Under the pieces are notes generated by a model. It was not told the DNA's origin, did not search any database, and saw only the letters and a program-made list of their open reading frames with translations. Shown piece by piece: positions 14,709 through 34,749 of a stretch of DNA of 34,759 nucleotides. How positions within the stretch are numbered: position 1 is the stretch's first letter; each line of letters opens with the position of its first letter. The stretch comes from Coriobacteriales bacterium (GTDB lineage: Bacteria > Actinomycetota > Coriobacteriia > Coriobacteriales > UBA8131). The position numbers and the translations under genes are program-made. The stretch is taken from positions 1-34,759 of the forward strand of contig JAIRXA010000085.1 of NCBI GenBank assembly GCA_031268525.1. Reading direction: 5' to 3'.

Positions 14709-14726
14709 CTCGTACCTCCCGGGCCG

Positions 14727-15680: not shown

Positions 15681-15690
15681 AGGAGCCCTC

Positions 15691-16422
15691 CTAATCGTTA
15701 AGCCAGTCGCAGGTGTCCTGCTCAAAGTTGTCCGGCTGTACTGCGGTCTTTACCTTGTCGCCAGGGCTAGACTCGGATACAGCGCGCATCGACTTATGTA
15801 CCCAATCGAATAATTTGGTAAAGTCATAGTCAGTCAGCCGCGTCACTTTCTCCCCAGCCAGCTTGTGAAGCGTCTCAGAACTGTAGCTGCCGCAGCCAAA
15901 TGCCAGCAGCTTCAGCTTGCCGTCCGCCTCCATCTGCCTCACAACCTCGGCGGCTTCGTCTACAGGCGTGTTGGGATAGCCGTCCGTAATGAGCAACACC
16001 CAAGGCTTATAGGGTCGGATGCCCTGACTGAGGTAACGGCGGTACTGGTTATCCACTTCGGTGAGGGCCGCCTTGACAGCCTTGTTCATTTCGGTGCTAC
16101 CCTCTGGTCGCAAGGTGTGATCAGCCATGGCAGTCACCGGCGCAAACGGCTGGATGTACTTGTTGGCATCGCTGAAGGTGATAATACCAACATCAAGCAC
16201 ACTGGCAGTCTTCGGGTCCTTGAGCATGTCGCGTTTGAATCGAGCAATTCCCTTGTTCAGCTCGTCGATCGGGGTACCAGACATAGACCCCGACACGTCC
16301 ACAAGTAGCATCAAGGCCTCGCGGTTCAGTGTCGACATCTCGATTGCCGTGCTTGGCCCGTCCCGAAAAAACCCGTCGTCGTGACTGTCGGAGCCTTGAT
16401 TTTTCCTGCCGAAAATAGACAT
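15691..16422 (-). CDS. TerY-like von Willebrand factor A domain protein
   Basis: The 243-residue protein has a full MIDAS metal site: DVSGSMS (42-48), Thr in EGSTEM (near 110) and Asp in LITDGYPN (147). The size and sequence order match TerY, the vWA member of tellurite-resistance-linked TerY-P modules, where it acts as a scaffold or phosphorylation target in the cytoplasm. The tail is short and acidic. A GAGGT site supports the ATG. It is the first gene of the minus-strand operon and faces the SNF2 gene across a 326-base divergent region. Confidence 0.87.
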   Translation of the reverse strand: MSIFGRKNQGSDSHDDGFFRDGPSTAIEMSTLNREALMLLVDVSGSMSGTPIDELNKGIARFKRDMLKDPKTASVLDVGIITFSDANKYIQPFAPVTAMADHTLRPEGSTEMNKAVKAALTEVDNQYRRYLSQGIRPYKPWVLLITDGYPNTPVDEAAEVVRQMEADGKLKLLAFGCGSYSSETLHKLAGEKVTRLTDYDFTKLFDWVHKSMRAVSESSPGDKVKTAVQPDNFEQDTCDWLND

Positions 16423-16748
16423 AGTGATACCTCTTTCTGTCTTGGTTGGTGGCGTCCCGTCACCTTGTCATTTCTCATACTGAAGCCTTCAGTGTATGTG
16501 TCGGAATTTTCAACTTGAGTATTCATGGCTCCACGAATTCGTTTCGGGCGAAACCGTAGGCCTATAAAGGACAGAGGAGTTCGATAGGGATTTCCATCAT
16601 CCGTTCGTGCATGCTCTGAGTGAGCTTGATTGAGTGTAACGTGCGTCGCCGACGACTATCGAGAATTCCGTTCACTCGTCCCGGGCAGATAAGCTTTTCT
16701 CATTTATTGATGGGCGTACTGCGCCCTGATTCGAGAAAGGTGAACGCA
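16423..16748. promoter_or_regulatory. Divergent intergenic region with two adjoining palindromes
   Basis: The 326 bases separate the TerY-P operon (minus) from the SNF2 operon (plus), so both promoters should lie here. Two short symmetric elements adjoin: ACGAATTCGT at 16533-16542 and GTTTCGggcGAAAC at 16541-16554. A small hairpin, GGGCG-TACTG-CGCCC, lies about 20 bases before the SNF2 start. I could not pick a clear -35/-10 pair. A shared operator is plausible. Confidence 0.4.
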
Positions 16749-19700: not shown

Positions 19701-19895
19701 ATAACCCGTCTGGATAACCGTCTCTCCCGCCTCGCCAAGGACATTGAGGACATGAAAGTCGACAGGGAGGCGCTCATCAATCGTCGCGACGACATCGCCA
19801 ATTCGCTGGGTACCCCCGAGAGCTACAGCTCTCAGATAAAGGCCAAACAGCTCAAGCTGGACGAGCTGGATACACAGATACAGGAAGGTGCGTGA
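16749..19895 (+). CDS. Large SNF2-type (SF2) helicase, DarB/LtrC-like
   Basis: This 1048-residue protein is a DNA-translocating ATPase of the SF2/SNF2 group. Walker A is LAHEVGVGKTYT (316-327), motif II FIDEVHKYKN (448-457), motif III LATGTPITN (498-506), motifs V-VI STAKGGTGFNVQERL and QREGRGLRPGN (744-785). The N-terminus has WELAGGYLSGNVYLKL, found in the helicase half of DarB/LtrC-like proteins of conjugative elements and phages, but no methylase motif (NPPY) is visible. The C-terminus is a coiled coil (about 985-1048). The ATG at 16749 follows AAAGGTG; an earlier in-frame ATG at 16620 has no such support. The next gene overlaps its stop by four bases (GTGA). Confidence 0.87.
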   Translation: MAITEIELIPLDDRSSGGAAVNAALLGPRQALTLSVRNLGKVDPEYIARLCGVSTEDAIDRLSGHIYQNPETWQGDAMQGWELAGGYLSGNVYLKLDAALRARSNSNAHGRFEANIQALKEVLPAAIPFANIYYGLGTPWIKESIYNAFVKEVLFGISGGGRLDLVTYDKAKNKWCIRSKRKLSKSTRGDFGTTYQGCGTLELLEDRMNLKSTVVKHEISDPAAKGGTRRVTDEKATAFTQRQQERLGEAFVTWVGNNEAVQCSIASSFNARFGYMLRKRFSGSYLDFPGLAEGIELFQCQRDAIARILLTPNTLLAHEVGVGKTYTMIVSGMLMRQMGISSKNLYAVPNDIVGQWEDFFRTLYPEAAILVITPDVMVPTLRNETLKEACTGDYDAIIMSHSVFERIPLRRPPKPVERRGSSKKAESCKPYKHVLYWFEDLGVNTLFIDEVHKYKNIPLHSRINNVYGLNITGADTSADVLAKVRCVQKMNGGGGVVLATGTPITNSLADVFAWQSMCQPSLLKMLNIDTFDKWVSTFAERTEEYEITLAGKPRLTTRFRCFCNLPELASLMSQFTDFHRLDMRDDLPKLDKYSEHVVAMNEYQEWVFEDFSGRIEKIRCRQVHPKDDNMLMVYTDARKTSLDVRLFDTAFVSKMECKVQRCARQIYEIYLAGADGLLTQLVFCDTSTPKNSFNIFDELTNELLALGIPRSEIAFVQDNTTTEQYKKALVAEMNSGRVRILVGSTAKGGTGFNVQERLVAIHHLDTPWRPADMIQREGRGLRPGNTNKQLFIYRYLTEKSFDAYQYQILETKQELIAQFMSGSFPFREVEDLGAAVLDYGQVKALLEDNPRIKERLDIANDITRLRLLLKGDEENRLALRSELAAIPAKIAEMDAHLAAASADSLTAAAAPAPLATQEDRKRHGAYILWAAEDIACGERRELGSYRGFGLSIAKEAEGEDLAVYAVLDGQGQYRVKLGESAAGAITRLDNRLSRLAKDIEDMKVDREALINRRDDIANSLGTPESYSSQIKAKQLKLDELDTQIQEGA

Positions 19896-21004
19896 TCCAG
19901 ATGAAGAAGGATGCCAATACAGGCGTTGCCCTGCAGGCAGCCATCAGTTCGGTCGCTGACCTCTATGTTGGCGCTCTCAATCAGGGGCTCTCGCCATCCA
20001 ACTTACCTCCGTTCATGCTTTGGGGGCCGCCGGGGGTCGGCAAGTCGCAGGGCGTGAGGCAGATCGCGCTCGACGTTGGGAAGCGCACTGGCAGGAAGGC
20101 CGTAGTCACCGACGTGCGTCTGATGCTCTTCAATCCCGTAGACCTGCGTGGCATACCGGTGGCCAATGCCGAGCGTACGCTAGCGGTTTGGCTCAAGCCG
20201 GAGGTTTTTGATATGGACGCCGACGACGGCATCGTCAACGTCCTGTTTTTGGACGAGATCAGTGCCGCACCACCGTCCGTGCAGGCCACGGCCTACCAGA
20301 TCACCTTGGATCGCCGCATCGGCGAACATAGGCTGCCAGATAACTGCATCGTCATAGCAGCAGGCAACCGTGTGACCGACCGCTCGGTGGCCTACAAAAT
20401 GCCCAAGGCACTCGCGAACCGGCTTTGCCACATCGACGTGCGTGCGGACCACAGGACGTGGAAGGCTTGGGCTGTGCGATCTGGCATAGACCCCCGCATC
20501 CTGGGCTTCTTGGAGTTTCAGCCAGACCGGCTCATGCGTTTTGACACTGCGACAGACGACCATGCCTTCGCCACGCCACGCTCTTGGGAGATGCTCAGCC
20601 GCGTGCTCGACTGCCTCACTGGCGATGACAGCGGGCTATTTCTACTGACGTCGGGCTGTGTTGGCGAGGGGGTGGCTACGGAGTTCCTCACCTGGATTGA
20701 TGTTTATGATAGTCTGCCCGACATTGCTGCCATCTTTGACGGCAAGGATGTTGAGGTGCCCAAATCGACTGACGCCTTATATGCGCTCGTTTCCTCGATG
20801 GTTGCCTACGCCAGGGACAACCTGGATGATGAATGGCGCATCGAACGCTCAATAGCCTACGGGACACGCCTGCCAGTGGATTATACGGTTGTACTCTTCC
20901 GCGATTACCAATCTATCAGTGAGCAGTCTAAGCGTTTGCTCATGCGCTCAGAAGCTCTCAACGACTGGAGCATAGCACACGGGAGATTCTTTAATGATAT
21001 CTGA
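19892..21004 (+). CDS. MoxR-like AAA+ ATPase
   Basis: The 370-residue protein is a cytoplasmic AAA+ ATPase of the MoxR type. Walker A is LWGPPGVGKSQG (43-54), Walker B VLFLDEISAAP (117-127) and sensor 1 IAAGNR (155-160); an ANRL segment follows. MoxR proteins act with vWA partners to remodel or insert cofactors into targets. The GTG start at 19892 overlaps the helicase stop and has AGGAAGG upstream; an ATG at 19901 is an alternative. Its end overlaps the vWA gene by 11 bases, so the three genes form one operon. Confidence 0.85.
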   Translation: MIQMKKDANTGVALQAAISSVADLYVGALNQGLSPSNLPPFMLWGPPGVGKSQGVRQIALDVGKRTGRKAVVTDVRLMLFNPVDLRGIPVANAERTLAVWLKPEVFDMDADDGIVNVLFLDEISAAPPSVQATAYQITLDRRIGEHRLPDNCIVIAAGNRVTDRSVAYKMPKALANRLCHIDVRADHRTWKAWAVRSGIDPRILGFLEFQPDRLMRFDTATDDHAFATPRSWEMLSRVLDCLTGDDSGLFLLTSGCVGEGVATEFLTWIDVYDSLPDIAAIFDGKDVEVPKSTDALYALVSSMVAYARDNLDDEWRIERSIAYGTRLPVDYTVVLFRDYQSISEQSKRLLMRSEALNDWSIAHGRFFNDI

Positions 21005-22280
21005 TGACGGATACGCGCGCAGAGCTGCGGATCGGCTCCTGCGCTCGCGCACGCGCCTGCTGCTCGACCATGGTTTCTTTGGACTACTGCTGATGCACAT
21101 GCACTTCGCCCTGGACGATACATTCGGCATGGCGGCGACAGACGGCGACTTCATCTACTTCTCCCCAGAGTTTCTGGCAAACATCAGCGACGAGGAGTTG
21201 GACTTCATCATGATGCACGAGGTGATGCATACAGCGCTTGCCCACACCTCGCGTGTCAGCGAGCGGGACAGTTTCGCCTTCAACGTGGCCTGCGACATCG
21301 TGGTTAACTCTATCATCATCAAGGAGATGGGAAGGGGGTCGTTCTCGCTCGAGAAGTATGGCCCAGCCATGCACCTGGCGCCCAGTGGCAGGGAGGGTTA
21401 TCTCTACTCCGCTGAGGAGGTCTACGAGATGCTTGGTAAATACAAATTACAGTGCGACCAGGCCTCTGATGGAGCAGGAGGAGGCACAGCGAAAGGCAAA
21501 GGTGCGGCCAGTGGCAGGCGTGAAGCGAACGGCAGAGGTACGGCCAGTGGCAGGCGTGAAACGAACGACAGAGGCGAGATACTTGATGACCACTCGCGCT
21601 GGGGCAAGCATGCTGGTGACGACAGGCATCAGGCGACTTGGCGGCAGCGCATCCTGGCTGCTGCAAAGGCTATGGAGCGCAGGGAACGGGATTGCGGCAG
21701 GCTCCCGCTGTTCGCTGAGAGGCTTGTCAGGGAGCTTGCGGAGTCAAAGGTGGACTGGCGCTCCGTACTTCAGAATTTCATTCAGGAGGAGGTCTTCGAC
21801 TACGGCTTCCAGCCACCGGACAAGCGCTACCAGGATGGCGACTTCCTGCTGCCAGACTTCAACGATAAGCGCAACGTGCTACACAACGTCATGTTCTACG
21901 TCGATGCTTCCGGGTCGGTATCCAACCAGGAACTTGTCGAAGCCATGAGCGAGGTCGTCGGGGCGGTCGAGCAGTTCGGCGGCTGCCTGACTGGCTACGT
22001 CTCCTTCTTTGACGCGAAGGTTGGCAAGCCCCTGCCATTCGATGATGTGTCCGACCTTAACAGAGCTGCCGTGTGCGGCGGTGGCGGCACCAGCTTCCAG
22101 ACCGTGTTCGATAGCCTCCAAGGTTTTGCCAAAGACAACCCCGTCTCCTGCGCCATAGTACTCACAGATGGCTATGCGCCCTACCCTGCAGAGAGTGCAG
22201 CGGCAGATATACCGATACTCTGGCTCATCAACAACGAGAAGAAGACCCCTCCTTGGGGACTGGTAGTGAGGATGGATTAA
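20994..22280 (+). CDS. HEXXH metallopeptidase-vWA protein (DUF2201-like), MoxR partner
   Basis: The 428-residue protein joins a zinc-peptidase-like domain and a vWA domain. HEVMH (75-79) with Asp in FNVACDIVVN (near 101) forms a likely zinc site; the MIDAS motif is YVDASGSVS (302-310), with Thr in GGTSFQT and Asp in LTDGYAP. This layout matches DUF2201-type proteins encoded beside MoxR ATPases. Between the domains lies a Gly/Arg-rich stretch that is a tandem duplication in DNA. The start is supported by GGGAGA upstream. Whether it cleaves protein is untested. Confidence 0.85.
   Translation: MISDDGYARRAADRLLRSRTRLLLDHGFFGLLLMHMHFALDDTFGMAATDGDFIYFSPEFLANISDEELDFIMMHEVMHTALAHTSRVSERDSFAFNVACDIVVNSIIIKEMGRGSFSLEKYGPAMHLAPSGREGYLYSAEEVYEMLGKYKLQCDQASDGAGGGTAKGKGAASGRREANGRGTASGRRETNDRGEILDDHSRWGKHAGDDRHQATWRQRILAAAKAMERRERDCGRLPLFAERLVRELAESKVDWRSVLQNFIQEEVFDYGFQPPDKRYQDGDFLLPDFNDKRNVLHNVMFYVDASGSVSNQELVEAMSEVVGAVEQFGGCLTGYVSFFDAKVGKPLPFDDVSDLNRAAVCGGGGTSFQTVFDSLQGFAKDNPVSCAIVLTDGYAPYPAESAAADIPILWLINNEKKTPPWGLVVRMD
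21501..21572 (+). repeat. In-frame 36-base tandem duplication
   Basis: Two 36-base units (21501-21536 and 21537-21572) differ at three positions, all G to A. They encode GAASGRREANGR and GTASGRRETNDR in the linker of the HEXXH-vWA protein. The linker tolerates length change because the unit is in frame. Confidence 0.8.
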
Positions 22281-22302: not shown

Positions 22303-22791
22303 TTACTCTACTGTTTTGCTGGGCTTCGCCAGCACATCATTGAGGCCAATGTAGCCTCTGGAGAAAGCCAAGAGCTTGAGACTGTATGTATCCATCAGCT
22401 TGTTTGAGTAGGAGACGATCTCATCAATTATCTCAGCTGTAACTACCATGTCCTTATAGCGTGAACTGTTGCGATAGATAATCTCACGCATCTCCGTCAC
22501 CACCGAAAACGAGCCACTGAGCAAAGTCGTGTTGATGAGACAGCACGCCCACATGGCTTCTTCCAGTTTTTCTGTCGGGAGGCTGAATGGCAGGAAGCTA
22601 GCGACGGTGATCCGCTCGCCTTTTCCGTTTGTTTCTATAAAGAAGCAGGCGTCCAGGTCTTTACCTCTGATGTTGTAGTGGATGGTGAGCTCTTTGTCGT
22701 CGGCCTCATAATGCCAGCCGCGTTTGTCAAAATAACTCTTAATCGTCGCGTACGTTGCTGTTGCGTTTGATGTCTTGGTCTTGTCTCCCAT
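22303..22791 (-). CDS. YbjN-like (type III chaperone-fold) protein
   Basis: The 162-residue protein has the alternating helix and strand pattern of YbjN-like proteins: an N-terminal helix ATIKSYFDKRGWHYEADD, then strands LTIHYNIRG and ACFFIETNG, and a helix after FSLPTEKLEEAMWACCLINTT. Such domains bind partner proteins as chaperone-like adaptors. A GGGAGG site seven bases upstream supports the ATG at 22791. It follows the DUF5663 gene by two bases and is the last gene of the HerA operon, convergent with the vWA gene. The assignment rests on pattern, not on a catalytic motif. Confidence 0.6.
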   Translation of the reverse strand: MGDKTKTSNATATYATIKSYFDKRGWHYEADDKELTIHYNIRGKDLDACFFIETNGKGERITVASFLPFSLPTEKLEEAMWACCLINTTLLSGSFSVVTEMREIIYRNSSRYKDMVVTAEIIDEIVSYSNKLMDTYSLKLLAFSRGYIGLNDVLAKPSKTVE

Positions 22792-22793
22792 GG

Positions 22794-23777
22794 TTAATCC
22801 TCCCGAGTATTCATCCAAAGGCCGATCAGTCCTTTGGTGTCTATTTCGCCTTTGTTCAACGCTTCGAAGTGAGGGTAGAGATCATCCACTGTGCGAAGCG
22901 TGCTGTAGAGCATCACACCAAACAGCTTGTTCCCTGGTAGGCTGCTACGGTAGTAGGCGGAGGAAACATAGTCCAGCCTGTCACGCTCTGGGTCAAAAAT
23001 AAAGCATCCGACCGACAGATACTGGTTTATTTCGTTTATGCATCTTAGGAATTCGCTGCCTTGGGCTGCGTCGATAGCAAGTATTACCTTTGCGACTATT
23101 CGCAGACATCCAGACTGAGGAATTACCCTGAAACAAACAGGCACTCTCGTGCTCCTGAACTTGATAGCTGTGGTAATGGTGCGTTTTTCATCATCGCTGG
23201 AGTACAGCAATTCCTCATTGTCAAGAAAAGCGCAGAGTTTGCCAAAAATCAATTCAGCCTGCCCCAACTCATCCAAGCCGTCCATGTCAGCTCGCTCCAA
23301 GAGTTTGCGCCGCGCGGCATCTTCTGAAGCAATCTTCTCAAGTATTGCGGCACTGCGCTCCGTCAACTCCTTCTTAATCTCGCCGAAGACAGCAGCTACC
23401 ACCATGCGATAGTCCGGGCAATTTCTCGCAAGCCACATCATTGCGCCGAACTCGCTCATTATGGCCTCCGAATCCAAGCTCTGGCCATGCGAGGCTCTGT
23501 TCTCGTAGAAGCGCTCGAGCGTCTGACGGTTCTCGGGTATGTCGAGAGGGAAGTTACGACTCAGCCATCCGCGCATTATCTCGGTGTCTTTGTCTACAAA
23601 CGCCCCAAACTCATCGATTATCTCATCGCTCAGGCCTTCGGTTATCTTTTTTCCAACGCGCATCTCCAAATCGGCATATAGGTCCGAAATGAACCGAGTC
23701 TTCCGTTTTTCCGGCATCGAGCCAAGCCCTATCTCTTCGAGAAAGTCGTTGTCTAGTTTGAGCTTATCCATTATCAT
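22794..23777 (-). CDS. DUF5663 plus YbjN-like adaptor protein
   Basis: The 327-residue protein begins with a DUF5663-like helical domain: FLEEIGLGSMPEKRKTRFI, YADLEMRVGKKITEGLSDEI, DEFGAF (about residues 12-58). A second, partial copy of similar helices lies near WLARNCPDYRMVVAAVFGEI. The C-terminal 130 residues resemble the YbjN fold of the next gene (strands TITTAIKF, VPVCFRVI, then RCINEINQYLSVGCFIFD). DUF5663 is often attached to secretion or DNA-transfer ATPases, which fits its position. The ATG at 23777 overlaps the HerA stop (ATGA); an ATG six bases later is possible. Confidence 0.7.
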   Translation of the reverse strand: MIMDKLKLDNDFLEEIGLGSMPEKRKTRFISDLYADLEMRVGKKITEGLSDEIIDEFGAFVDKDTEIMRGWLSRNFPLDIPENRQTLERFYENRASHGQSLDSEAIMSEFGAMMWLARNCPDYRMVVAAVFGEIKKELTERSAAILEKIASEDAARRKLLERADMDGLDELGQAELIFGKLCAFLDNEELLYSSDDEKRTITTAIKFRSTRVPVCFRVIPQSGCLRIVAKVILAIDAAQGSEFLRCINEINQYLSVGCFIFDPERDRLDYVSSAYYRSSLPGNKLFGVMLYSTLRTVDDLYPHFEALNKGEIDTKGLIGLWMNTRED

Positions 23778-25582
23778 GCCTTCTTTCTGCTCTTACCCTT
23801 GCGGCCAGTTTTTCCGTCAGTTTTGTCTCCGGGCTGGTTGGGCTGGTCGCCTCCCGGCTTCTCAGTTTGCGCAGCGCTGGTCTTCTGCGTTTTCTTATGC
23901 CTCACATCCTGCCGCTTCGCTTCTAAAAACGACAAGTCGTCCCATGAGATCGAGGTGGTGCTGTCAGCCTGTTGAGACTTTGGCTCCACCTTGGCTTCTT
24001 TGTCTTGAGCAGGCGGGGTTTTACTCTCTGGTGCAGTCATGCTGGCAAGCATGTCTGCAAGTTCTTGGACGGTGCCCGTATCAGTACCACTGCCCTCGAT
24101 TTGTGCGCGGACGGTCTCTATTTTCTTCTTTTGGCTCTGCTTGGGCTTGGCACTTTTTGTATCGACCTCTTTGCCATCCCTCCGCCGCCAGATGCCCTCT
24201 TCTACCATGCGTTTGCGTATCTGTGTCGCCGTGGTGTCATCTTGCGCTTTTGGCGCAAGTGGTACAGAGACGACAACGGGCTTAAGCTCCCTGTTGTCGA
24301 ACAAGAGCCTGACCATCGCTTTGTAGCGCCCGATGTGGCGCACAGAGTCGATGTCGATGTCAAACTGGTCGGCAATCACTCGTGCATCATTGGCTCCCAC
24401 CCTGAAGCAGGCGATGGTGCCAACGTTGCCGAGGACGGCCTCCAGGAGAGAATGGTCCTGGCTTCCGGTGTGTAGATTAAAACGGATCAGCTGGCGGATG
24501 TTCTGGTTTGCGAGGATAAAGCCGCAGCCGAACTTGCGTGCCTCAGCCAACAACACAGCGAAGTCTGGGGTTGCGAAACGCTGGAACTCGTCGATGTACA
24601 CGTAGTGCTTACGCAATGGTTCGTCGCCTTTGAGGCACCGCTTCATGATGGCGTTCTTGATAAGCGCTACAAAATACGAGCCTATGAAGTCCGCTACACT
24701 GGTGCCAACGAGAGCCTCGGGTATCTTAACGATGAGTATCTTGCCGTTCTCGATAATCTCCTCAATGTCGATAGTTGTCTTGCCGCCGCCGAGAAAGAAG
24801 CGCAGCGTGGGGTCGGACACCCACTCGTGTATTTTAGAGAGGAACCAATGGATGGTGGAATCCCAATCGCTGTCACGACGGGAGCGTTTCTCCAGGTTCC
24901 ACTGTTCAACCAGACGCGTGCTCTTGATGGACTTCAGCGCATCGCCCAGATGGGCATCGTTGATGCTCAGAGCTTCAACCTCGGTAATGCTGCGCTCGAA
25001 TGGATAGCCGGGGTCCATGATGGTCTCCAGGCGCAAGCGCATAAGCTCTTCGCCACGAGGGCCGTAGTAACCTTCTGGCATCCTGCTGGATATCAGGGCG
25101 TTGAGGGTTTGCACAACAAGTGTCTTTTTTGCTTCATCGTTACAGTCAGCGTTCAAGAGATTGATTATCGGAAGGTACTCAGTGTTGGAGAAGTCCGCCA
25201 ACACTACGTCATTGAGGCGGTTTGGTGGAATTTTGGCCAATATCCTGTCGGCGGTCTTGCCGTGGGGGTCAATGAACGTAATCCCGTTGCCTTGGTTGAT
25301 ATCCTGCATTCCTGCATACTCAAACAAGTTGCTTTTGCCAGTTCCGGTCTTCCCAAAAAACCATGTTTGCTGCAATCTGTCTTCGGGAAACTGCCTGCAT
25401 TCCAGAATCTCTCCATGACTGAGGTAGTGCCCCAGGCTGACTCCCAAATCCAGGGTGTCCAACTCGTTTTTGAGATTGGAGTCCAGATTATAGCTGTCGC
25501 TTGTTTCTTTGCGATTCACTCTCTTGCCGCCTCTCCTGCTGATCTCTGAGTCGTTGATGAGTATTGTTTCAAAATCCCTCAT
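23774..25582 (-). CDS. HerA/VirD4-like ATPase
   Basis: This 602-residue protein belongs to the FtsK-HerA-VirD4 family of ring ATPases that pump DNA or protein. Walker A is FFGKTGTGKSNL (75-86), then ITFIDPHGKTADRILAKIP (101-119), typical of TraG/VirD4-like members, Walker B YVYIDEFQRF (327-336), and ILANQN (356-361). No membrane helices are seen, so it is a soluble type rather than a classical coupling protein. The C-terminal 160 residues are low complexity, ending in a basic KGKSRKK. No relaxase or mating-pore genes are in the window, which argues for a conflict-system role over conjugation. No strong ribosome site precedes the ATG. Confidence 0.85.
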   Translation of the reverse strand: MRDFETILINDSEISRRGGKRVNRKETSDSYNLDSNLKNELDTLDLGVSLGHYLSHGEILECRQFPEDRLQQTWFFGKTGTGKSNLFEYAGMQDINQGNGITFIDPHGKTADRILAKIPPNRLNDVVLADFSNTEYLPIINLLNADCNDEAKKTLVVQTLNALISSRMPEGYYGPRGEELMRLRLETIMDPGYPFERSITEVEALSINDAHLGDALKSIKSTRLVEQWNLEKRSRRDSDWDSTIHWFLSKIHEWVSDPTLRFFLGGGKTTIDIEEIIENGKILIVKIPEALVGTSVADFIGSYFVALIKNAIMKRCLKGDEPLRKHYVYIDEFQRFATPDFAVLLAEARKFGCGFILANQNIRQLIRFNLHTGSQDHSLLEAVLGNVGTIACFRVGANDARVIADQFDIDIDSVRHIGRYKAMVRLLFDNRELKPVVVSVPLAPKAQDDTTATQIRKRMVEEGIWRRRDGKEVDTKSAKPKQSQKKKIETVRAQIEGSGTDTGTVQELADMLASMTAPESKTPPAQDKEAKVEPKSQQADSTTSISWDDLSFLEAKRQDVRHKKTQKTSAAQTEKPGGDQPNQPGDKTDGKTGRKGKSRKKA

Positions 25583-25768
25583 TGCGACGGAATTTCTGAT
25601 GCTTTTCTGCCATGTACCTGCTTATCTCGATAATTCGGCTATACTATTCCATTGAAGGCAAGCACACGGTCATGCATGTAGCATTTTCATGTTTTCACGT
25701 CTGGTGCTTTCGGAATGTAGATGAGTTAAACGAATTGAAGAAGGCGTACCAATCGGAGGGCCGGGGAA
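25583..25768. promoter_or_regulatory. Divergent promoter region of the HerA and 697-residue protein genes
   Basis: These 186 bases lie between divergent genes. On the plus strand TATACT at 25640-25645 is a good -10 candidate, though the matching -35 is weak. GGAGG before the ATG at 25769 is the ribosome site of the plus-strand gene. No RNA gene or long repeat is seen. Confidence 0.3.
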
Positions 25769-27862
25769 ATGCCGAACGAAGAACGTGCAGAATCATTACA
25801 GAACCCGAATGACAACAATCCTGAAGCCAACGCGCTTGAATTCGAAGAAGCCGATCTGCCGGGAGCGCCAGGCGGAGAGGCGTATTTCAGAAAGTCCTTT
25901 GATAGGATGGGGAATCCGACGCAGGCAGCCATGCGTAGCCAGTATGAAGAAGCTTTCACAACCCCCGAAGAAACCCTCGAGTGGTTAGAGGGACTACCTA
26001 CCAGGGGGCACAATGCTTCAGAGAAGATGAAAGAGCTCGTTAATGAGAAACACTCAACTCTCTTTACTGCCATAGAACTCGCGTGCAAAAACGATAACGC
26101 CGCCTATGTTGAGACTCTCGTCGCATTGATCAGGGCTACAGCAGGGAATGACACGGCGGACGCAATGCGAGCAAACATTAGGAACTGGATTGCCGGAGAG
26201 AGTTGTCCCACCATAGAAACTCAGGCTTTCATACTCTGCTTCGCATTGCAGCTGGACGCCCTTGAGGCACAGGACTTCCTACAAAAAGCCTGCTATATGA
26301 ATGTCTATAACTTCAGGAAGACGAAGCACATTTTTTACAGCCTTGGCCTTCAGTTTGGGCTAACATACGATGGCACGGAATCAATCCTCATCAGATACCT
26401 GCATAAAACCATTTCGGCAGAGCAGAAAGAGGCGCTCCAAAACGGCGAAGCGTTGAAGTATATATTCTCCACCACACAGGGCGATGCGAAGATAAAAAAG
26501 TTCTGGGAATTTCTTATCCACAACAAAGATCTATTATCCGATACGTCGCCAGGTGCACATTTTTTGGCGTTATTGCAAGCATTACTGGCGAGTACTCCTC
26601 TGGCAAAAGAATGCCTAAAGCAGGTAGATCTCAACGCCGTTGTCGGCAATTCGTCTGAATGGATTGCAGGTTCTGACTTCGATGCGGTTTTCTCCGTAAT
26701 TGAAGACCAGAAGAGACGGGGCTCGCTCATCCGTTACCTCGACGAGCACTTTCTGCAAGGCCTCTCTCAGTATTGTGGCACACTACCACCGGAGACCGTT
26801 GCTGCAGTTTACGAGACTGCCTTTTCAAGAGTGTGGAATAACGCCGACTACATGATAAGAGTATATTACGACCTTGTAGCGCGCGATAACGCGCACAGAT
26901 ACGCGCCGAGAGGCGGGGGTACAACGCGAGCGCACGAGGCTGTCATGGATGTTGTGTTGAGAGGCGAGTATAGAGACCCGGATCTCTACGAAACGATAGA
27001 CACCATTCGTTACAAGCTGGTAGATTTACGCAACGAGCAGGATGACGTCGCAAGCCTACAAAATGAAATAGATGGCGCCCTGGATGAGATGGCCACACTT
27101 ATTGGTGGCTTATTGAGGGTGAGTTCGAAGAGCTTCATTGGCTACAGCAAAACTGCATACCAAAGGTACCTCTGGTATAGGATCAGGTTAACAAAGCAGA
27201 TAATCAGGGAATCCTCGGAAACAACAATGCCCCCGTCACCCGCAGGCGAGAGCATCGACGAGAACACCGTGGACTTGAAAGTCTTAGAAAGCTACGCCGA
27301 AGCTCTGCAAGAGCACGGCAAGGTTTCCGACCCCGAATTCGTCTTCAACCTGTATGGTAAATACGCCAACCTCACTCTACGGGCAAATGGCGAGCGACGA
27401 GACCGAAGTGAAAAAGAGATTGACATCAAGCTATTGGCACAAGCGGGCATCGAAGAGATGCCTGCAATAAATTATTTCTCGCGGGTACGAAAGAACCCGG
27501 CAACGCTTACAACAAGTGAGTGGGGCAGAAGCATTCTCTTTCTTTTCTATTTCTATGGTTTTGTCTCAGATAGCTACATCAGAGAGCTGGCAATAGAAAA
27601 GTTTTATGATGAGCACCCAGGGCTGGCAGGAGCAGAGGGCATTAGTCACGAGAATTATCTTTCATTTTATTATGGACTCTGCAAACTTGCCTATGATTGT
27701 GGCCTTGCGATACCGTATCCGAGAAGGCGATTTGACGCACTGCTACTGAGGGCAGCTGCAGAGCTGGATAACCGGAACAATGGCGATGACCAGCCGCTGG
27801 TGTACTTTGGTGAGCTTATTGAGTACGTTTACGATACTGATTCGGAGCGATATGATGCCTGA
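25769..27862 (+). CDS. Unrecognised 697-residue helical protein
   Basis: I do not recognise this protein. It looks soluble and mostly alpha-helical, with no membrane segment or signal peptide. The first 40 residues are acidic and disordered. The region about 100-200 has repeated helices around CFALQLDALEAQDFLQKA and FYSLGLQFGL, a pattern seen in some uncharacterised proteins of Gram-positive bacteria. The region about 400-500 has many Asp/Glu/Arg residues and may be coiled coil. The last part is Tyr/Phe-rich (ILFLFYFYGF). The next gene's start overlaps its end, so it is translated with the pseudokinase and may be its target or effector. No nuclease or other catalytic motif could be identified. 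Confidence 0.7.
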   Translation: MPNEERAESLQNPNDNNPEANALEFEEADLPGAPGGEAYFRKSFDRMGNPTQAAMRSQYEEAFTTPEETLEWLEGLPTRGHNASEKMKELVNEKHSTLFTAIELACKNDNAAYVETLVALIRATAGNDTADAMRANIRNWIAGESCPTIETQAFILCFALQLDALEAQDFLQKACYMNVYNFRKTKHIFYSLGLQFGLTYDGTESILIRYLHKTISAEQKEALQNGEALKYIFSTTQGDAKIKKFWEFLIHNKDLLSDTSPGAHFLALLQALLASTPLAKECLKQVDLNAVVGNSSEWIAGSDFDAVFSVIEDQKRRGSLIRYLDEHFLQGLSQYCGTLPPETVAAVYETAFSRVWNNADYMIRVYYDLVARDNAHRYAPRGGGTTRAHEAVMDVVLRGEYRDPDLYETIDTIRYKLVDLRNEQDDVASLQNEIDGALDEMATLIGGLLRVSSKSFIGYSKTAYQRYLWYRIRLTKQIIRESSETTMPPSPAGESIDENTVDLKVLESYAEALQEHGKVSDPEFVFNLYGKYANLTLRANGERRDRSEKEIDIKLLAQAGIEEMPAINYFSRVRKNPATLTTSEWGRSILFLFYFYGFVSDSYIRELAIEKFYDEHPGLAGAEGISHENYLSFYYGLCKLAYDCGLAIPYPRRRFDALLLRAAAELDNRNNGDDQPLVYFGELIEYVYDTDSERYDA

Positions 27863-29300
27863 AAATCGTCATGAGACAGCACAGGCACTGGGCGAAGTGG
27901 CCGTAGACAGCTACGAAGCGAACCCCTCTCTGCGCTTCGACAGCATAAAACAAGACTACTGGAAACGGGAGAGCCTGTTTTCGTTTGCGCGGGAAAAGTA
28001 TCCAGATACAGACCTCTATAACTACTCTGTCGATGTTGAACGGAACATCAGAATTGATCCCATCAGGGCAGCAAGTAGTCTACGCTTGGCGCTTGAAACA
28101 TTTGTCGCGATTATTCTTAAGGACAATAACATCTCCGTATCAATAAACTATTCATTTAACAATCTGTTTGAGAAGTTAAAGGACGCACTGCACTTAGATG
28201 TGAGAGCGCAGGGTTTCTTGCATAGGATGAAAGAGGGGCAAAAGAAAACGATAAATTGGCCAGATGAGTATAACAGCAATTTTAAGCGCCTGAGAGCATT
28301 GACGAACGCAGCACATCATATTGAGGACACCAAAAAAGACACCGATGCGAAATTGATGACCGAGCAGAATGTGGCGTATGCTGCGCGCGTATATTACTTG
28401 GAATTATGCAAATACGCACAACTTTATCCTGTGAACGCTATCTCATGGCCAATCGGTGACTTCTACGAACTCAAGAAACTTGCCAAGAATGCAGCGCCTT
28501 TAAACAGAATAGAAGTCCTGTCTGCCAAAAGGAGTATTTCTGCGCCTGGTTTAGATTCTCATGCGATTCTTTACGTGTATTCCCATAGAGGAGAGGGGCT
28601 GAGCGACGGCATCATCAACCGCCAGGGAATTGTCAAGGATATTGAGCGGAGCTCCGGGCTTAACCCCATTGTACCAAACGTAGAGGTTGTGGCCGACACA
28701 TACGATAGCAAGATACTGGCATATACCTTCGCCACGGAACCAATTGTGCTCTTGCCCGACAGCTTTGACTTGGAGCTTTCAGACGCCGAATACTGTGAGT
28801 TATTCACGAGAATTGCTGCAGGACTCGCGGCTCTGCAGGATTCGTCGCCCCCGGTTTTTCATCGAGCGATATCTCGATATGCTGTGGTTTTTGAAAAGAC
28901 TTCAGCCGGACGCTATCTGCCAAAGTTGATCAATTTCAACCTTGCGAAAGTCGAGGGGTTGGCAGGAACTGTAGGGCCAGATCTGAAGGGAGTTCTTATT
29001 TCTAACGCATATAAACCACCTGAACTGCACCTTGATACTTCTTGCACGGATGAGATGGGCCAAAGTAAGCTAAATGTCGATTGGGGCAAATACGATGTTT
29101 ACGCCTTAGGAGTTCTCTTTCTTGACGTTCTTAACAGGCTTACGGGTACCGTTACCTTGGCTCAGGCAAAGAAGCTCCATCCTCCTGCAGCGGATGGATT
29201 ATCAGAGGACTTCTATTACTTACTTGAGAAGATGGTTGATCCTGCACCGGAGAATCGGCCAAATATGACGATGGTAGCCAAGCAATTGGCTCAGCCCTGA
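27855..29300 (+). CDS. HEPN/DUF4145-like domain fused to a pseudokinase
   Basis: The 481-residue protein has two parts. Residues about 68-190 (RAASSLRLALETFVAIIL ... LRALTNAAHHIED) resemble DUF4145/HEPN helical domains, though a clear RX4-6H ribonuclease motif is not evident. Residues about 215-481 have a kinase fold: the loop near HRAISRYAVVF (336-346) lacks the catalytic Asp and Asn, DFG is replaced by NFN (360-362), and PPEL plus DVYALGVLFLDVL (388-426) mark the C-lobe. It is therefore probably catalytically dead and acts as a sensor or scaffold for the next gene, an active-looking kinase. The ATG at 27855 has GGAG seven bases upstream; the ATG at 27852 is also possible. Confidence 0.75.
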   Translation: MPENRHETAQALGEVAVDSYEANPSLRFDSIKQDYWKRESLFSFAREKYPDTDLYNYSVDVERNIRIDPIRAASSLRLALETFVAIILKDNNISVSINYSFNNLFEKLKDALHLDVRAQGFLHRMKEGQKKTINWPDEYNSNFKRLRALTNAAHHIEDTKKDTDAKLMTEQNVAYAARVYYLELCKYAQLYPVNAISWPIGDFYELKKLAKNAAPLNRIEVLSAKRSISAPGLDSHAILYVYSHRGEGLSDGIINRQGIVKDIERSSGLNPIVPNVEVVADTYDSKILAYTFATEPIVLLPDSFDLELSDAEYCELFTRIAAGLAALQDSSPPVFHRAISRYAVVFEKTSAGRYLPKLINFNLAKVEGLAGTVGPDLKGVLISNAYKPPELHLDTSCTDEMGQSKLNVDWGKYDVYALGVLFLDVLNRLTGTVTLAQAKKLHPPAADGLSEDFYYLLEKMVDPAPENRPNMTMVAKQLAQP

Positions 29301-29306
29301 AAGCCT

Positions 29307-30938
29307 GTGATTATTGTGAGCCATTCGACATCCTCATACTTCATTGTCGGCGACTCCCGCCAAGGCCAAGAACTGAGCTCCAAAACGCCGCCCCTCAATC
29401 TTGACGGTACTGAGGTGCAGATAGGTGGGCTGATCGGCGTTGGCACAAGCTGCCTGGCATACGACGGTAAGACCGTTGGTTTGAGCGAGCGCGTGGTGGT
29501 CAAGGAGTGGTTTCCCCGTGATCTCGCCGCCTGCAAAGCCCTGAAGCGCGATACGTCTTCTTCCTGCCTTATCGCCGACGCAGAAGTGATGAAGGACATC
29601 GAAGGCGATGAGCTCCGGAAAGGATTCGAAAAGAGCTTCATCAAGTGGCTTGAATACCAGAGAGAAGCCCCCCGTTTTACCCTCTGGCCGGAGCTGCACC
29701 CCCTTGGTGATACGGTCTACCTCCTGACAAAGCTCGGAGGGGAGGGTATGTCGCTGTCACAGTCCCGCGCGGACCTCCTGAAAAAGGATTGTTCGCGCGA
29801 ATCCCTGTGCTCGGTGCTCGAAGTTACGATTTCCCTCCTCAACAGGCTGCAGCCCTTGCACACGGCCGGACTCCTGTACATCGACGTCAAACCCGAAAAC
29901 ATCCTGCTGTTCAGCACAGACAAGACGCCTGGCGAGAGCAGGGCGGTGGCCCTGTTCGACTTTGACTCCACGGCGAGCCTCACCGATATACAGAATGGGT
30001 CTGTCATCCTCCGTCCCACGGCAGGGTGGGCACCCCACGAAGCTTGGGAGCCGACCCAGCCCGAGAGCGTGAACTTCTGCACAGACCTATACGGCGTGGG
30101 GCGCGTCCTGCTGTGGTTATTGGGTGTGGAGCCGTCAGCAGACGGAGCGGACTGCCTTGGCGAGAACTTTATACGGACGAACATCGGGGCTTACCTCGGT
30201 CGGTTTGCCAGCACCGAGTTTTCTACGAGTGCCTGCAACACCATAATTGTGGCCTTGGCGAAGGTGTTGGCAAATGCGCTACGGCACGACACCAAAAAGC
30301 GCTATCAGAGCATCGCTGAGATGCGTGCGGCCCTGATAGCCGTCCGTGAAGGCTTGGGAACGTACCATGCCGAACCTGAGCCCAACGATGATGAGCTGCA
30401 TGAGTTTAAAAGGCGCTTTGACAACATGGAGGAATTAATCCGCACTGCATTCGATAATGTCAGTCGGCAGCTCCAAAAGAGCACGACAGAGATTATTCAA
30501 GAAGTACAAAAGACGCCGGAACAGGCGTATCAGGGGGCATATCAGGGGGCAATCGATGCGGGGAAAGCAACTTCTGGCCATGGCGATCTCGACACGCAAG
30601 CCCCCGATAAAAAGAGCTCGTTGCGGGTGGAAGCATCTGGCAACGGACTTGCTATACAGATTGAGGTAACAGATTCCGGCAATGACAGCACCCCCGGAAA
30701 GCCCGAAGAAAATACTGACCCGCCCAAAGCGGACCTCCCAACTGCTCTTCCAGAAAGGCCTTATCCCGCCTTGGACGAAAAAACTAATGAGCGCATATCG
30801 TCACTGATTAACAGCTTGGGTCAACACAGTGACGATTCGGATCCTGCTGCATCGTTGACAATTGAACTGCTTGACCAGAGAGTTGCGAACGACGAATCGA
30901 CTACGGCTCTTCAGGAATGGGTAGCTATCTATCTGTAG
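29307..30938 (+). CDS. Protein kinase with long disordered tail
   Basis: This 543-residue kinase has a glycine loop GLIGVGTSCLAY (41-52), a lysine in VVVKEW (66), an intact catalytic loop LYIDVKPENILL (190-201), metal site LFDFDS (DFD instead of DFG, 217-222) and an activation end WAPHEAWEP (241-249). It is likely active. Residues after about 355 are charged, with a coiled-coil candidate and an AYQGAYQGA duplication, and no membrane helix, so it is cytoplasmic. The start is GTG at 29307, six bases past the pseudokinase stop. Its end overlaps the convergent nitroreductase gene by ten bases. Pairing with a pseudokinase suggests regulated phosphorylation; targets are unknown. Confidence 0.85.
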   Translation: MIIVSHSTSSYFIVGDSRQGQELSSKTPPLNLDGTEVQIGGLIGVGTSCLAYDGKTVGLSERVVVKEWFPRDLAACKALKRDTSSSCLIADAEVMKDIEGDELRKGFEKSFIKWLEYQREAPRFTLWPELHPLGDTVYLLTKLGGEGMSLSQSRADLLKKDCSRESLCSVLEVTISLLNRLQPLHTAGLLYIDVKPENILLFSTDKTPGESRAVALFDFDSTASLTDIQNGSVILRPTAGWAPHEAWEPTQPESVNFCTDLYGVGRVLLWLLGVEPSADGADCLGENFIRTNIGAYLGRFASTEFSTSACNTIIVALAKVLANALRHDTKKRYQSIAEMRAALIAVREGLGTYHAEPEPNDDELHEFKRRFDNMEELIRTAFDNVSRQLQKSTTEIIQEVQKTPEQAYQGAYQGAIDAGKATSGHGDLDTQAPDKKSSLRVEASGNGLAIQIEVTDSGNDSTPGKPEENTDPPKADLPTALPERPYPALDEKTNERISSLINSLGQHSDDSDPAASLTIELLDQRVANDESTTALQEWVAIYL

Positions 30939-31480
30939 CCAAGCAGTATTGCTGAAATAATCGGATGTTCAAGGCTAAGAAGGTTGGCGATTTCCACCCT
31001 TGCCTCCAGCACGTCTCCAACCCACAGGCTTTTTAGCCCAAAGCCTGTTGCTGCAAGAAGCGCATTTTCAATCGCGGCGCCAATTGAAAGCAGGTCTGCT
31101 GGATGCGAGTCCTTGCCCACTCCTGTGGTTTGAGAGTCGCATGCTATCAACACAACAGGGGCCTGTACTATTGCATCTGCACTTTTCTCTACCCCATCGC
31201 GAATAGAACTCGCATTCGTAGGTGTCCGTGCTGCTTCATAGAGAATATGTGCGATTGCAACCTTAATCGACTGATCAGTTATTACCACAAACGACCAGGG
31301 CTTCCTGTCTTTGGCAGATGGTGCCTTGTCGGCAAACTCGATAATGCTTTTGATACTACGATTATCTAGACTCCTTGAGTTAAATCTACGTGTGCTTTTG
31401 CGAGTGGCAATGGCGTCAAAAACGCTCATGTCAGAAGATTGGTCTCGCTCGCTATCATTTTTGTCGCATGATGTCTTCAA
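30929..31480 (-). CDS. Nitroreductase-family protein
   Basis: The 183-residue protein fits the FMN-dependent nitroreductase fold: AIATRKSTRRFNSR (FMN phosphate-binding arginines), ADKAPSAKDRKPWSFVVI (the usual APSA-NxQPW-F motif), SIGAAIENALLAATGFGLKSLWVG and a short C-terminus ending AILLGYR. The family reduces nitro groups or flavins with NAD(P)H. The start at 31480 is TTG and overlaps the NTPase stop (TTGA), with GAGGAA upstream; an ATG at 31429 is the alternative and would give a more usual N-terminus. Coupled translation ties it to the NTPase gene. Its substrate is unknown, and it may serve a redox-sensing or effector role. Confidence 0.8.
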   Translation of the reverse strand: MKTSCDKNDSERDQSSDMSVFDAIATRKSTRRFNSRSLDNRSIKSIIEFADKAPSAKDRKPWSFVVITDQSIKVAIAHILYEAARTPTNASSIRDGVEKSADAIVQAPVVLIACDSQTTGVGKDSHPADLLSIGAAIENALLAATGFGLKSLWVGDVLEARVEIANLLSLEHPIISAILLGYR

Positions 31481-34470
31481 GAGTTCCTCGCAGGAGTCTG
31501 CTCACGTCGTTCCAACTCGTCTTTTGCTGCTGTGCTTCGATAATCCACCTTGAGATCGATATCGCGTAATTGCGGCAACTCGTCAATGTGCAACCCGGGT
31601 CTCTCGTTGTTGTTTCTTGCTGGGTTCTGGTCTGTTTCATTCAACATTTGGACTTTAAAGTCCTCTTGCGGAGAAACTGAAGTAAGGCCGTGAACGAGAC
31701 AGAACGCGAACTCAACAAAACCTTTTAGCTTGTCCCCAAACCAAGGATTAATGAGTTTAGAACTATCGATATGAACAGCAAAGGCATCTTCGCCACAACC
31801 GTGCGCATTATTGTGAGCGCCTATTCCAACGGGTCTGGATACCGTCAAGCCTCGTATTGCACATTCAAAAATGTAAAGCGAGAGGGTGTTTTGCTCTACA
31901 AAATCCACTGATGAGCCAGCCACAAAAGCCATGGCCAGAGAGTGTGGGTTTTTGGTAGCGGACCCTGCATCTGAAGCCATGAATTTGCAATCTCGTATCA
32001 TCAGAGATGAAACACGCCCACCGAGAAGAAGCATCCCTCCCGTTTGGCTGCGAACAGTTCCAGCATTAGGATCGATTTGTTGTGAGGGAATGGCTGCAAC
32101 TCCTGATGTCAAGGAATAGAGGAGCATGGATGCCGCACTGTCCTTGTGAATCCCGCGATAATAATAAAGTGGCTCCATAGTCTTCTCGTCTGCTGGAACA
32201 TAAAAGGATGGCAGGCCGTTTTCGCGCATGTCCTGGATGCCTTCCTCGGAGAAACTGCCTGTCACATCATCTGTGTCGACCTCGCCGAGGATCGTACAAT
32301 GATCAAATACAGCGCCATCCAAGAGACAATTGACAAAGACCACTCCTTCAAAACAACAATCATGGAACTTTGACGAGCTGAAATCACAGTTTGTGAATAT
32401 TGTGTTGCGGAAAACAGCGCCTACAAATTCCGATAAGCGCCACCTCAGGTTAACCAGATGTGTCGTCTTGCCGTTATCTGAGCAAAACACATCAAACGTC
32501 TTGCTGAGGTCGCCTTGATTGAAACGCCCCCATACTCTACGTTCACCAAGCATTGCAGTAAATGAAGCAATATCAATGCTTGGGTCAACGTCTGGATTAT
32601 TGTTTCTGCTCCAAGCTGTTAAGGCTCGCCCTAACCCATCATGCGCAAAACGGACCGTTGGACTCTCTTTGCCGGTGACAAGGCAGATTTTGGTCTCTTT
32701 AAGCCATAGTGCAGCAAACACAAAGCCTTTAATTTGCTCAATTAATACAGAGCGTGGGTCACAGGCAAACATTGCTCCTGACGAAACATCATAGGGGTCC
32801 TCGAGCCAAGGCACACGATCTATGCCTGTGAGTTGTGCCGCTTCTTTTGGTAAGGCTTCTCCCATCGCGCCCAAAACAGTCTCTTGACCAGCGCTGAGCA
32901 GGAGGGAGCTTGCTCTTTGTTTTGCGCTAGGGGCATCAACATCTTCCATCTCTCTAAGGGCGTCGTCCCATATGGTTTTGAGTATGTCTTGCCACTTTTG
33001 GACAGCCTCATCGGAGCCGTCTGGCGTTCTTGAAAGTAGAGCGATTTCCTTGCCATAAGAGTCCCTGAACAATTTGTTAAGCTCAACGGATCGCTTATAG
33101 TCATCACTCTTGAGGGGTTGCGTTATTCTCCTCAAATGCTCGCGAACCATTGGTTCAACGGTACCAACGCTGATATCGGGGATATCCTTCGCGGCAAGCG
33201 CACAGTGTTGTAACTTCTGATCTATGGTGGCAGAGAATCCTGCACCCGAAATGTGTTCAGCAAATGATGTCAGCTTGGTAGCCATCTCATCAAAACTGTC
33301 TTGCGAATCTATGACCATATCGAAGAAGCCATCAATATCATGTGCGATTGATTCTCGAAGACCGTCGCGCTCATCGCGTACTGTTTTTACCTGCAAAGCG
33401 TTTGGGCTTTTTTCGATGGCCTGACGCACCGACGACAAACTGAGCCACCAGGAGAAGTCTTCAAACTCATCAAGACTGCCCTGAGAATTGATGGCCCTGT
33501 CGAAAAAGTCATCAAAACAATAAAGTGCTAAATGGAGCAGATGTTCTCTTGTTATTATTGTTCGCGTATTTTCAAAACGTTTATTGGCAGTCCAATAGAG
33601 AGCGTACAGTACTGCCTGTAGGCTGAGCAGCCAAGAAGAGTCCATCAGCTTTTCTGAGTTGTAAAATGTTTTAAAAAGCACATTCGCAACATCCCCTTCT
33701 GTTGCAAGCTCACCAGCACTATCCCTATCCTGCCCTACTTTATCAGGAGTCCCCAATGCGCCACTATTATTAATAATCCTCTCGATTGCATTTTTATCGG
33801 TAATGGGAAAGAGCCGAAACGTATCGAAGCTGCAGGCCCTCAGTTTTGCCATGATGTCCTTCAGCTTATAGTCGTATTCAGAGCGTAGAGACACAACGAT
33901 CTTCAAGCTGAAATTTCGATTGATATACGACAGCCAGTCAGAAAACAGATCTACCTCTCTTATGGTAGAGTGTCTGATGAACTCCTCAAATTGATCGAGA
34001 ATCAATACGGGTATCCCCTCAAAATCGCAAAGCGTTCTGGCAAGCCCGTACTTTGGGTCCTTGCCCATCTCGTCTGTCAGCCATCTTCTATTTTCCTCAT
34101 TAAACTGCCCAAGAAAAATGCTCTCGATATAGTGCTCAAACCCTTCGCTCCTTATTTTCTGTATCTCTTCGCGCCCTCCCCAATTGGAACAGAAAAATGG
34201 GACAAACTGGTATTTTTCCATCACAGTGCGCAAACCAACTTGAAGAAACGACGATTTTCCGACGCCTGATTCGCCATGAAGTACAACAAGACTGTTGTCA
34301 TCCAGAGAATACATAAATTTATCGAGGTCGTTACCGCGGCCCTCAAACGGCTTACCTTCCTCGTAATCCTTCAGGTCCAAGGGTCTTGGACCTGGCCATG
34401 GACACTCAGATTCAATGCAGTTAACAGCGTCGCGCCACAGCTGCAGTGGGCTGCTTGTGCAATCAGACAT
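31477..34470 (-). CDS. STAND-type NTPase (nSTAND1-like) with pentapeptide-like repeats
   Basis: The 997-residue protein begins with the STAND entry motif CPWPGPRPL (23-31), PFEGRGNDL, Walker A LHGESGVGKSSF (64-75), Walker B VLILDQFEEF (155-164) and the sensor-like VVSLRSEYD (192-200). These are typical of nSTAND1 switch ATPases found in bacterial defence and signalling. A segment VRFAHDGLGRAL near 606 fits the end of the helical region. Residues about 678-730 form pentapeptide-like repeats with every fifth position hydrophobic (FRNTIFTNCDFSSSKFHDCC). The last 265 residues are unrecognised and may be the effector or ligand-sensing part. The start at 34470 has AAGGAG seven bases upstream; the longer frame to 34500 overlaps the previous gene. 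Confidence 0.82.
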   Translation of the reverse strand: MSDCTSSPLQLWRDAVNCIESECPWPGPRPLDLKDYEEGKPFEGRGNDLDKFMYSLDDNSLVVLHGESGVGKSSFLQVGLRTVMEKYQFVPFFCSNWGGREEIQKIRSEGFEHYIESIFLGQFNEENRRWLTDEMGKDPKYGLARTLCDFEGIPVLILDQFEEFIRHSTIREVDLFSDWLSYINRNFSLKIVVSLRSEYDYKLKDIMAKLRACSFDTFRLFPITDKNAIERIINNSGALGTPDKVGQDRDSAGELATEGDVANVLFKTFYNSEKLMDSSWLLSLQAVLYALYWTANKRFENTRTIITREHLLHLALYCFDDFFDRAINSQGSLDEFEDFSWWLSLSSVRQAIEKSPNALQVKTVRDERDGLRESIAHDIDGFFDMVIDSQDSFDEMATKLTSFAEHISGAGFSATIDQKLQHCALAAKDIPDISVGTVEPMVREHLRRITQPLKSDDYKRSVELNKLFRDSYGKEIALLSRTPDGSDEAVQKWQDILKTIWDDALREMEDVDAPSAKQRASSLLLSAGQETVLGAMGEALPKEAAQLTGIDRVPWLEDPYDVSSGAMFACDPRSVLIEQIKGFVFAALWLKETKICLVTGKESPTVRFAHDGLGRALTAWSRNNNPDVDPSIDIASFTAMLGERRVWGRFNQGDLSKTFDVFCSDNGKTTHLVNLRWRLSEFVGAVFRNTIFTNCDFSSSKFHDCCFEGVVFVNCLLDGAVFDHCTILGEVDTDDVTGSFSEEGIQDMRENGLPSFYVPADEKTMEPLYYYRGIHKDSAASMLLYSLTSGVAAIPSQQIDPNAGTVRSQTGGMLLLGGRVSSLMIRDCKFMASDAGSATKNPHSLAMAFVAGSSVDFVEQNTLSLYIFECAIRGLTVSRPVGIGAHNNAHGCGEDAFAVHIDSSKLINPWFGDKLKGFVEFAFCLVHGLTSVSPQEDFKVQMLNETDQNPARNNNERPGLHIDELPQLRDIDLKVDYRSTAAKDELERREQTPARNS

Positions 34471-34471
34471 T

Positions 34472-34749
34472 TTAGCGCTCCTTACTCGAACAGCTGGCAA
34501 AGGGACTATAGTTCACAATAGTCCAATTGCCCTCGTCGGCATCAGAAACAGCCGCCTCCAGGTGCTCAATATAGTGTTCTATTGCTGGCGTAAACTCGTT
34601 AGTATTGCTTTCAACGGTGTCGAGCTCCGACCAGCGTAGTAATTCGGTAGCTCGAGGTGAGAGATCGCTATTGTTGATCACCACCCCGATTTTTGTCGGC
34701 CCGAGGTAGTTATTCTTCCTCAGCATTGGAGTAATCAGTTGGGAGATGA
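34472..34749 (-). CDS. C-terminal end of an unrecognised protein (truncated at the window edge)
   Basis: The frame is open to the right edge and ends at 34472, two bases before the NTPase start, so the two genes probably share a transcript. About 92 genuine residues are visible, including MLRKNNYLGPTKIGVVINNS and WSELDTVESNTNEF. An ATG at 34726 exists, but the frame continues upstream of it, so the gene is likely longer. No family is recognised. The last ten bases of the window (34750-34759) match sequencing adapter and should not be translated. Confidence 0.6.

Follow-up and report, generated by a model that had tools for sequence, protein, structure and literature searches.

A family of helical, HTH-containing proteins linked to Ser/Thr kinases in Coriobacteriales, and a three-gene locus with a probable HEPN-pseudokinase

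What does a 697-aa helical protein do beside a pseudokinase and a kinase, and do the three proteins act together? The locus that raises this question lies in a window that is one entire contig of 34,759 nucleotides from a draft genome of the order Coriobacteriales, of gut type. Open reading frames are present at 25769-27862, 27780-29300 and 29307-30938, all on the plus strand. An earlier note, made from the DNA letters, had described three plus-strand genes that overlap or are spaced by six bases. This arrangement is confirmed, with the first overlap corrected from 83 nt to 8-11 nt. A GGAGGG ribosome-binding site is found at 25755, ahead of the gene for the 697-aa protein. The pseudokinase gene probably starts at ATG 27852 or 27855, preceded by GGAG at 27844, and overlaps the stop of the first gene by 11 nt or 8 nt, respectively. 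The kinase gene starts with GTG at 29307, 6 nt past the pseudokinase stop at 29300. The three genes are thus spaced for translational coupling, and the best explanation is that they form one signalling unit, which we propose tentatively together with the mechanism described below. At its 5' end the trio is divergent from a TraG/VirD4-like ATPase gene and at its 3' end it lies tail to tail with a nitroreductase gene. A promoter scan of 25583-25768 gave nothing above chance. The features of the locus are:

25583-25768, no strand: intergenic region between the trio and the divergent TraG/VirD4-like ATPase gene, a candidate promoter region by position
25769-27862, plus strand: 697-aa all-helical protein, predicted giant member of a kinase-linked HTH/helical family (open reading frame, family profile)
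27852-29300, plus strand: predicted HEPN(DUF4145-like)-pseudokinase, 482 aa (open reading frame, weak HEPN profile match, catalytic alignment)
29307-30938, plus strand: Ser/Thr kinase of DFD type, 543 aa, active-looking by sequence (open reading frame, profile matches, catalytic alignment)

Searches of Pfam, NCBIfam and PHROGs gave no hit for the 697-aa protein. A PADLOC HamB match (15 bits) and a polyketide synthase match were both rejected as weak matches to helical stretches. The earlier note had called the protein unrecognised and helical and had proposed sensitive profile searches and structure prediction for it. The library searches agree with the first description, and the profile searches revealed a family, showing that the protein is not an orphan. 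The single-sequence AlphaFold model is all-helical with no confidence (pLDDT 39) and was unusable. With the single sequence as query, a search of 399 genomes from the order returned weak hits, and the genomes concerned proved to hold proteins of 400-480 aa that align with the 697-aa protein along both ends. A family profile built from six homologues, with the 697-aa protein itself left out, scores it at 43.8 bits in two colinear matches, whereas the highest-scoring of 300 shuffles reaches 4.5 bits. The two matches correspond to:

26111-26353, plus strand: conserved region containing a Cro/C1-like HTH, residues 115-195 (six-homologue profile, 25.1 bits)
27641-27832, plus strand: C-terminal conserved module, residues 625-688, the second colinear match (16.5 bits; BLAST pieces of 33-42% identity; alignment)

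Based on these alignments, the 697-aa protein appears to be a giant, fast-evolving member of an HTH/helical family that is apparently new to description. The Slackia homologue is also all-helical in an AlphaFold model, whose confidence is best in the HTH region (pLDDT 70-91) and for which no structural neighbour was found in PDB or BFVD. Iterated searching added further large members (L048, L049, L050, L051, L085 and L086) and small proteins of 140-172 aa that have the HTH region only. Alignment with hhalign links the conserved HTH-containing region to these small proteins at 93%. The shared region resembles a Cro/C1-type HTH, with a weak match to HTH_31, and the kinase-linked members all fall below the Pfam cut-offs. 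A macro-domain protein (L052) carries the shared HTH region with HTH_26 over its cut-off; it has the HTH alone in common and was not counted as a member.

The family is sporadic, being present in 11 of the 399 genomes. No relatives of the 697-aa protein or its partners turned up in plasmids, phages or viral contigs, apart from a single weak, partial match of the kinase to a Rhizobium plasmid in the plasmid search. A first, low-sensitivity scan of contigs with the 697-aa protein yielded no relative, and weak phylum-wide hits (L002-L004, and a kinase in L016) were judged to be chance or generic.

We asked which genes accompany the family by running a kinase profile over all open reading frames of the fetched loci. 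A Ser/Thr kinase lies within 293 bp of the family member in all 17 relatives with readable context, which span 11 Coriobacteriales genera, do not include the window locus, and contain close relatives that are not independent (L027 with L028, and the g283 loci). L049 lacks readable context and was left out of this count. Because the family query profiles held no kinase sequence, the adjacency was not built into the search, and beyond the adjacent kinases the fetched loci gave one other kinase match, a weak one. The paired genes occur in divergent, convergent and co-directional arrangements. The conserved unit is a kinase with an HTH/helical partner, and because of this linkage to kinase genes we consider the 697-aa protein to be the dedicated partner of its kinase. 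In the window, the direct neighbour of the gene for the 697-aa protein is the pseudokinase gene, and the active kinase follows one gene further on. In three loci of one genus (L051, L085 and L086) family members, a pseudokinase and an active kinase occur together. The family open reading frame of L085 continues into a pseudokinase with a further kinase 46 bp away, and in L086 the family and kinase open reading frames overlap. The functional link between the large protein and a kinase that the earlier note had drawn is therefore supported by all 17 relatives. Its expectation that the genes are linked in relatives was correct for the helical/HTH protein-kinase pair; the full trio was seen at the window locus alone, with pseudokinases recurring in that one other genus.

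These observations could also be explained by a transcriptional switch in which the 697-aa protein is a DNA-binding regulator, its HTH is controlled through phosphorylation by the neighbouring kinase, and the HEPN-pseudokinase is a non-enzymatic adaptor. The Cro/C1-like HTH in the shared region is consistent with this idea, as are the smallest relatives (140-172 aa), which have little beyond the HTH yet are kinase-adjacent. However, no HTH match of a kinase-linked member reaches the Pfam cut-offs, and the conserved C-terminal module of the large members would be superfluous in an HTH regulator. We consider a switch of this kind somewhat unlikely.

The partner kinases themselves are related. 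The window kinase scores 47-57 bits against seven partner kinases and at most 30 bits against unlinked kinases of the same family and genome and the generic partner in L050. Together with the seven it forms one clade (96/94 support), in which it sits on a long branch. All eight kinases of this clade have DFD and a [YCF]-[IL]-D loop, and are without the histidine and arginine of HRD. L050 and L051 have partner kinases of a generic type outside the DFD clade.

Alignment with the partner and unlinked kinases showed that the 543-aa kinase has intact K66, D193, K195, N198 and D218, with DFD replacing DFG. Its tail is coiled-coil-like and of low complexity, and the protein has no evident membrane segment. 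In the same alignment, the catalytic D, K and N and the D of DFG are replaced by A, S, A and N in the pseudokinase; its N-lobe is too diverged for the ATP lysine to be placed with confidence. The motifs referred to here and in the following paragraphs are:

28293-28319, plus strand: putative HEPN motif RALTNAAHH (R148-H156), matching RxxGNxAxH of DUF4145 (profile alignment)
28860-28874, plus strand: degenerate catalytic loop HRAIS, D to A and K to S (alignment)
28932-28940, plus strand: NFN, the DFG counterpart of the pseudokinase (alignment)
29883-29966, plus strand: catalytic loop D193-V-K195-P-E-N198 and DFD, D218-D220 (alignment)

The C-lobe of the pseudokinase matches MkoA (7e-15) and MAD6 (4.7e-10), and these matches do not extend beyond the kinase fold. 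Against the MAD6 equivalog the scores were 38.6 and 20.5 bits, far under the cut-off of 460, and the score against the BREX PglW equivalog was 17.3 bits with a cut-off of 990. What the trio has in common with the PD-T4-6, MAD6 and MkoA kinases is the Ser/Thr kinase fold. PADLOC hits to PD-T4-6 and MAD6 were rejected as evidence for defence; almost every Ser/Thr kinase tested gives a match to these models.

The N-terminus of the pseudokinase has no Pfam match, even at an E-value of 1, and has a weak match to the NCBIfam HsdR N-terminus (E=0.039). A home-built HEPN profile, made from ten DUF4145-type HsdR N-termini, scores it at 14.1 bits in a split, low-scoring match, compared to 7.7 bits for the best of 500 shuffles. 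Both the 'dpiRAasslRlALE' helix and the RALTNAAHH motif of this HsdR-DUF4145 profile align in register. The motif keeps the conserved R, N and H, and T stands for G. DUF4145 is listed among the HEPN families, its motif being conserved in about 80% (PMC3710099), and it is likely, judging from this alignment, that the pseudokinase begins with a HEPN domain. Thus, what the earlier note had read from the letters in both kinase-fold proteins, namely a HEPN/DUF4145-like N-terminus, a dead kinase domain and a second kinase with its D, K and N residues, agrees with the profiles and alignments, the HEPN match being a weak one. The retention of R, N and H also argues against a non-enzymatic role as adaptor in a transcriptional switch. 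The HEPN-pseudokinase was found in none of the other genomes searched, so the tie between this protein and the kinase-helical pair rests on one locus.

We propose that the kinase and its helical partner control a HEPN RNase held by the pseudokinase through a phosphorylation switch. We favour this reading at a little under even confidence. At the core would stand a pair, the Ser/Thr kinase of DFD type and the 697-aa protein, its dedicated partner, which has an HTH-like region in an all-helical body. An output arm, formed by the HEPN domain and the dead kinase to which it is fused, would be added to this pair. A trigger may be read via the fast-evolving helical partner, acting as a sensor or adaptor, and this would change the state of the active kinase. 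The kinase might then phosphorylate the pseudokinase or hetero-dimerise with it, and the pseudokinase, as a regulatory platform, would let the HEPN domains form dimers and cleave RNA. Growth arrest would follow, probably directed against phages or other invaders. The earlier note had proposed an allosteric switch that controls an effector; the likely effector is the HEPN domain on the pseudokinase rather than the 697-aa protein.

This assignment of roles, with HEPN as effector, pseudokinase as platform, kinase as switch and helical protein as sensor or adaptor, is suggested by analogy to known systems. PglW and DndF have the order NERD, pseudokinase, kinase, and other DndF proteins carry HEPN (PMC12839542, PMC10853773). 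Like PglW of type 2 BREX and kinase-bearing DndF, the window locus has a predicted nuclease-type effector followed by an inactive and then an active Ser/Thr kinase, adjoining a fast-evolving part proposed as a sensor. It differs from them in having a probable HEPN domain where they have NERD, and in dividing the components among individual genes (nuclease-pseudokinase and kinase being two genes). The helical protein was not matched to PglW or DndF by profile, and the window showed no BREX or Dnd genes. A kinase-fold domain, dead in RNase L, is also fused to the KEN RNase, which is treated as HEPN (PMC3710099), in RNase L and IRE1. In the window the domain order is reversed, the HEPN is of DUF4145 type and the system is bacterial, making this an analogy in mechanism only.

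The remainder of the window bears on what the trio might serve. A TerY-P triad at 13068-16422 on the minus strand encodes a VWA protein, a PP2C phosphatase and a kinase with a zinc ribbon and membrane segments. The trio was previously suggested to be a second signalling module beside TerY-P, and the separate VWA/PP2C/kinase triad supports this. Both are phosphorylation modules in a defence-like island; unlike the triad, the trio proteins have no VWA or PP2C match. At 16620-22280 on the plus strand, overlapping genes encode an SNF2-type helicase, a MoxR-like AAA ATPase and a DUF2201 metallopeptidase-VWA protein, an apparent vWA-MoxR conflict set. The minus-strand region 22303-25582 holds the TraG/VirD4-like ATPase (MAD8-like 1.2e-14, phrog_5156 1e-23) and two YbjN-like genes beside it, one with DUF5663. 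On the other side, 31477-34500 on the minus strand encodes an nSTAND1 NTPase with pentapeptide repeats, probably a STAND-type sensor. The TerY-P, SNF2-MoxR-DUF2201 and nSTAND neighbours are compatible with a defence island without being proof of one.

Given this proximity, the pseudokinase and kinase could serve the TerY-P or TraG-like ATPase genes, with the 697-aa protein being incidental, and the L051 cluster does have PP2C-like and VWA-like genes together with two family members. However, TerY-P lies 9 kb off on the other strand, most family-kinase loci have no TerY-P genes seen nearby, and the pseudokinase gene overlaps that of the 697-aa protein by 8-11 nt, which makes such an arrangement highly improbable. 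Another explanation is an ordinary housekeeping or envelope-sensing kinase module that has no part in defence and whose HEPN-like fold is merely a dimerisation domain. Several partner kinases (L026, L027 and L030) have a probable membrane segment and an outer domain, and the pair is scattered through commensal Coriobacteriales. Yet the window copy lacks such a segment, its island holds TerY-P, SNF2-MoxR-VWA and nSTAND genes, the family occurs sporadically, and a TIR fusion is found in L050. We regard a housekeeping or envelope role as quite improbable.

That fusion is a 1502-aa kinase-TIR-membrane-beta-propeller protein encoded 13 bp after a family member (L050:9402-15212), in which ThsB_TIR and PQQ_2 are over their cut-offs. 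It suggests that effectors may recur on the kinase side. A wider reading is that the trio is a phosphorylation-gated bacterial RNase, a counterpart of RNase L/IRE1 in mechanism in which kinase and helical partner switch on HEPN via the pseudokinase, and that it belongs to a recurrent, undescribed kinase-partner family with HEPN or TIR effectors swapped on the kinase side. We consider this unlikely to hold in full. If true, it would supply the missing partner for a class of bacterial Ser/Thr kinases with unknown targets, would suggest that a kinase fold can control a HEPN RNase outside eukaryotes, and would make pseudokinase-nuclease switching of the PglW/DndF type directly testable in a three-gene system.

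Two further arrangements were observed among the relatives. One cluster (L051:747-11840) combines two family members, a stand-alone pseudokinase, a pseudokinase-kinase fusion, and PP2C-like and VWA-like genes. Pairs of a small HTH protein and a Ser/Thr kinase gene recur in Coriobacteriales (L087:3100-5009, L090:3170-5034 and L091:4506-6208), and no description of such an HTH-kinase pair was found in the literature searched. They share with the window the HTH region adjoining a kinase, whereas the member in the window has about five times their length, together with a C-terminal module, a DFD kinase and the added HEPN-pseudokinase.
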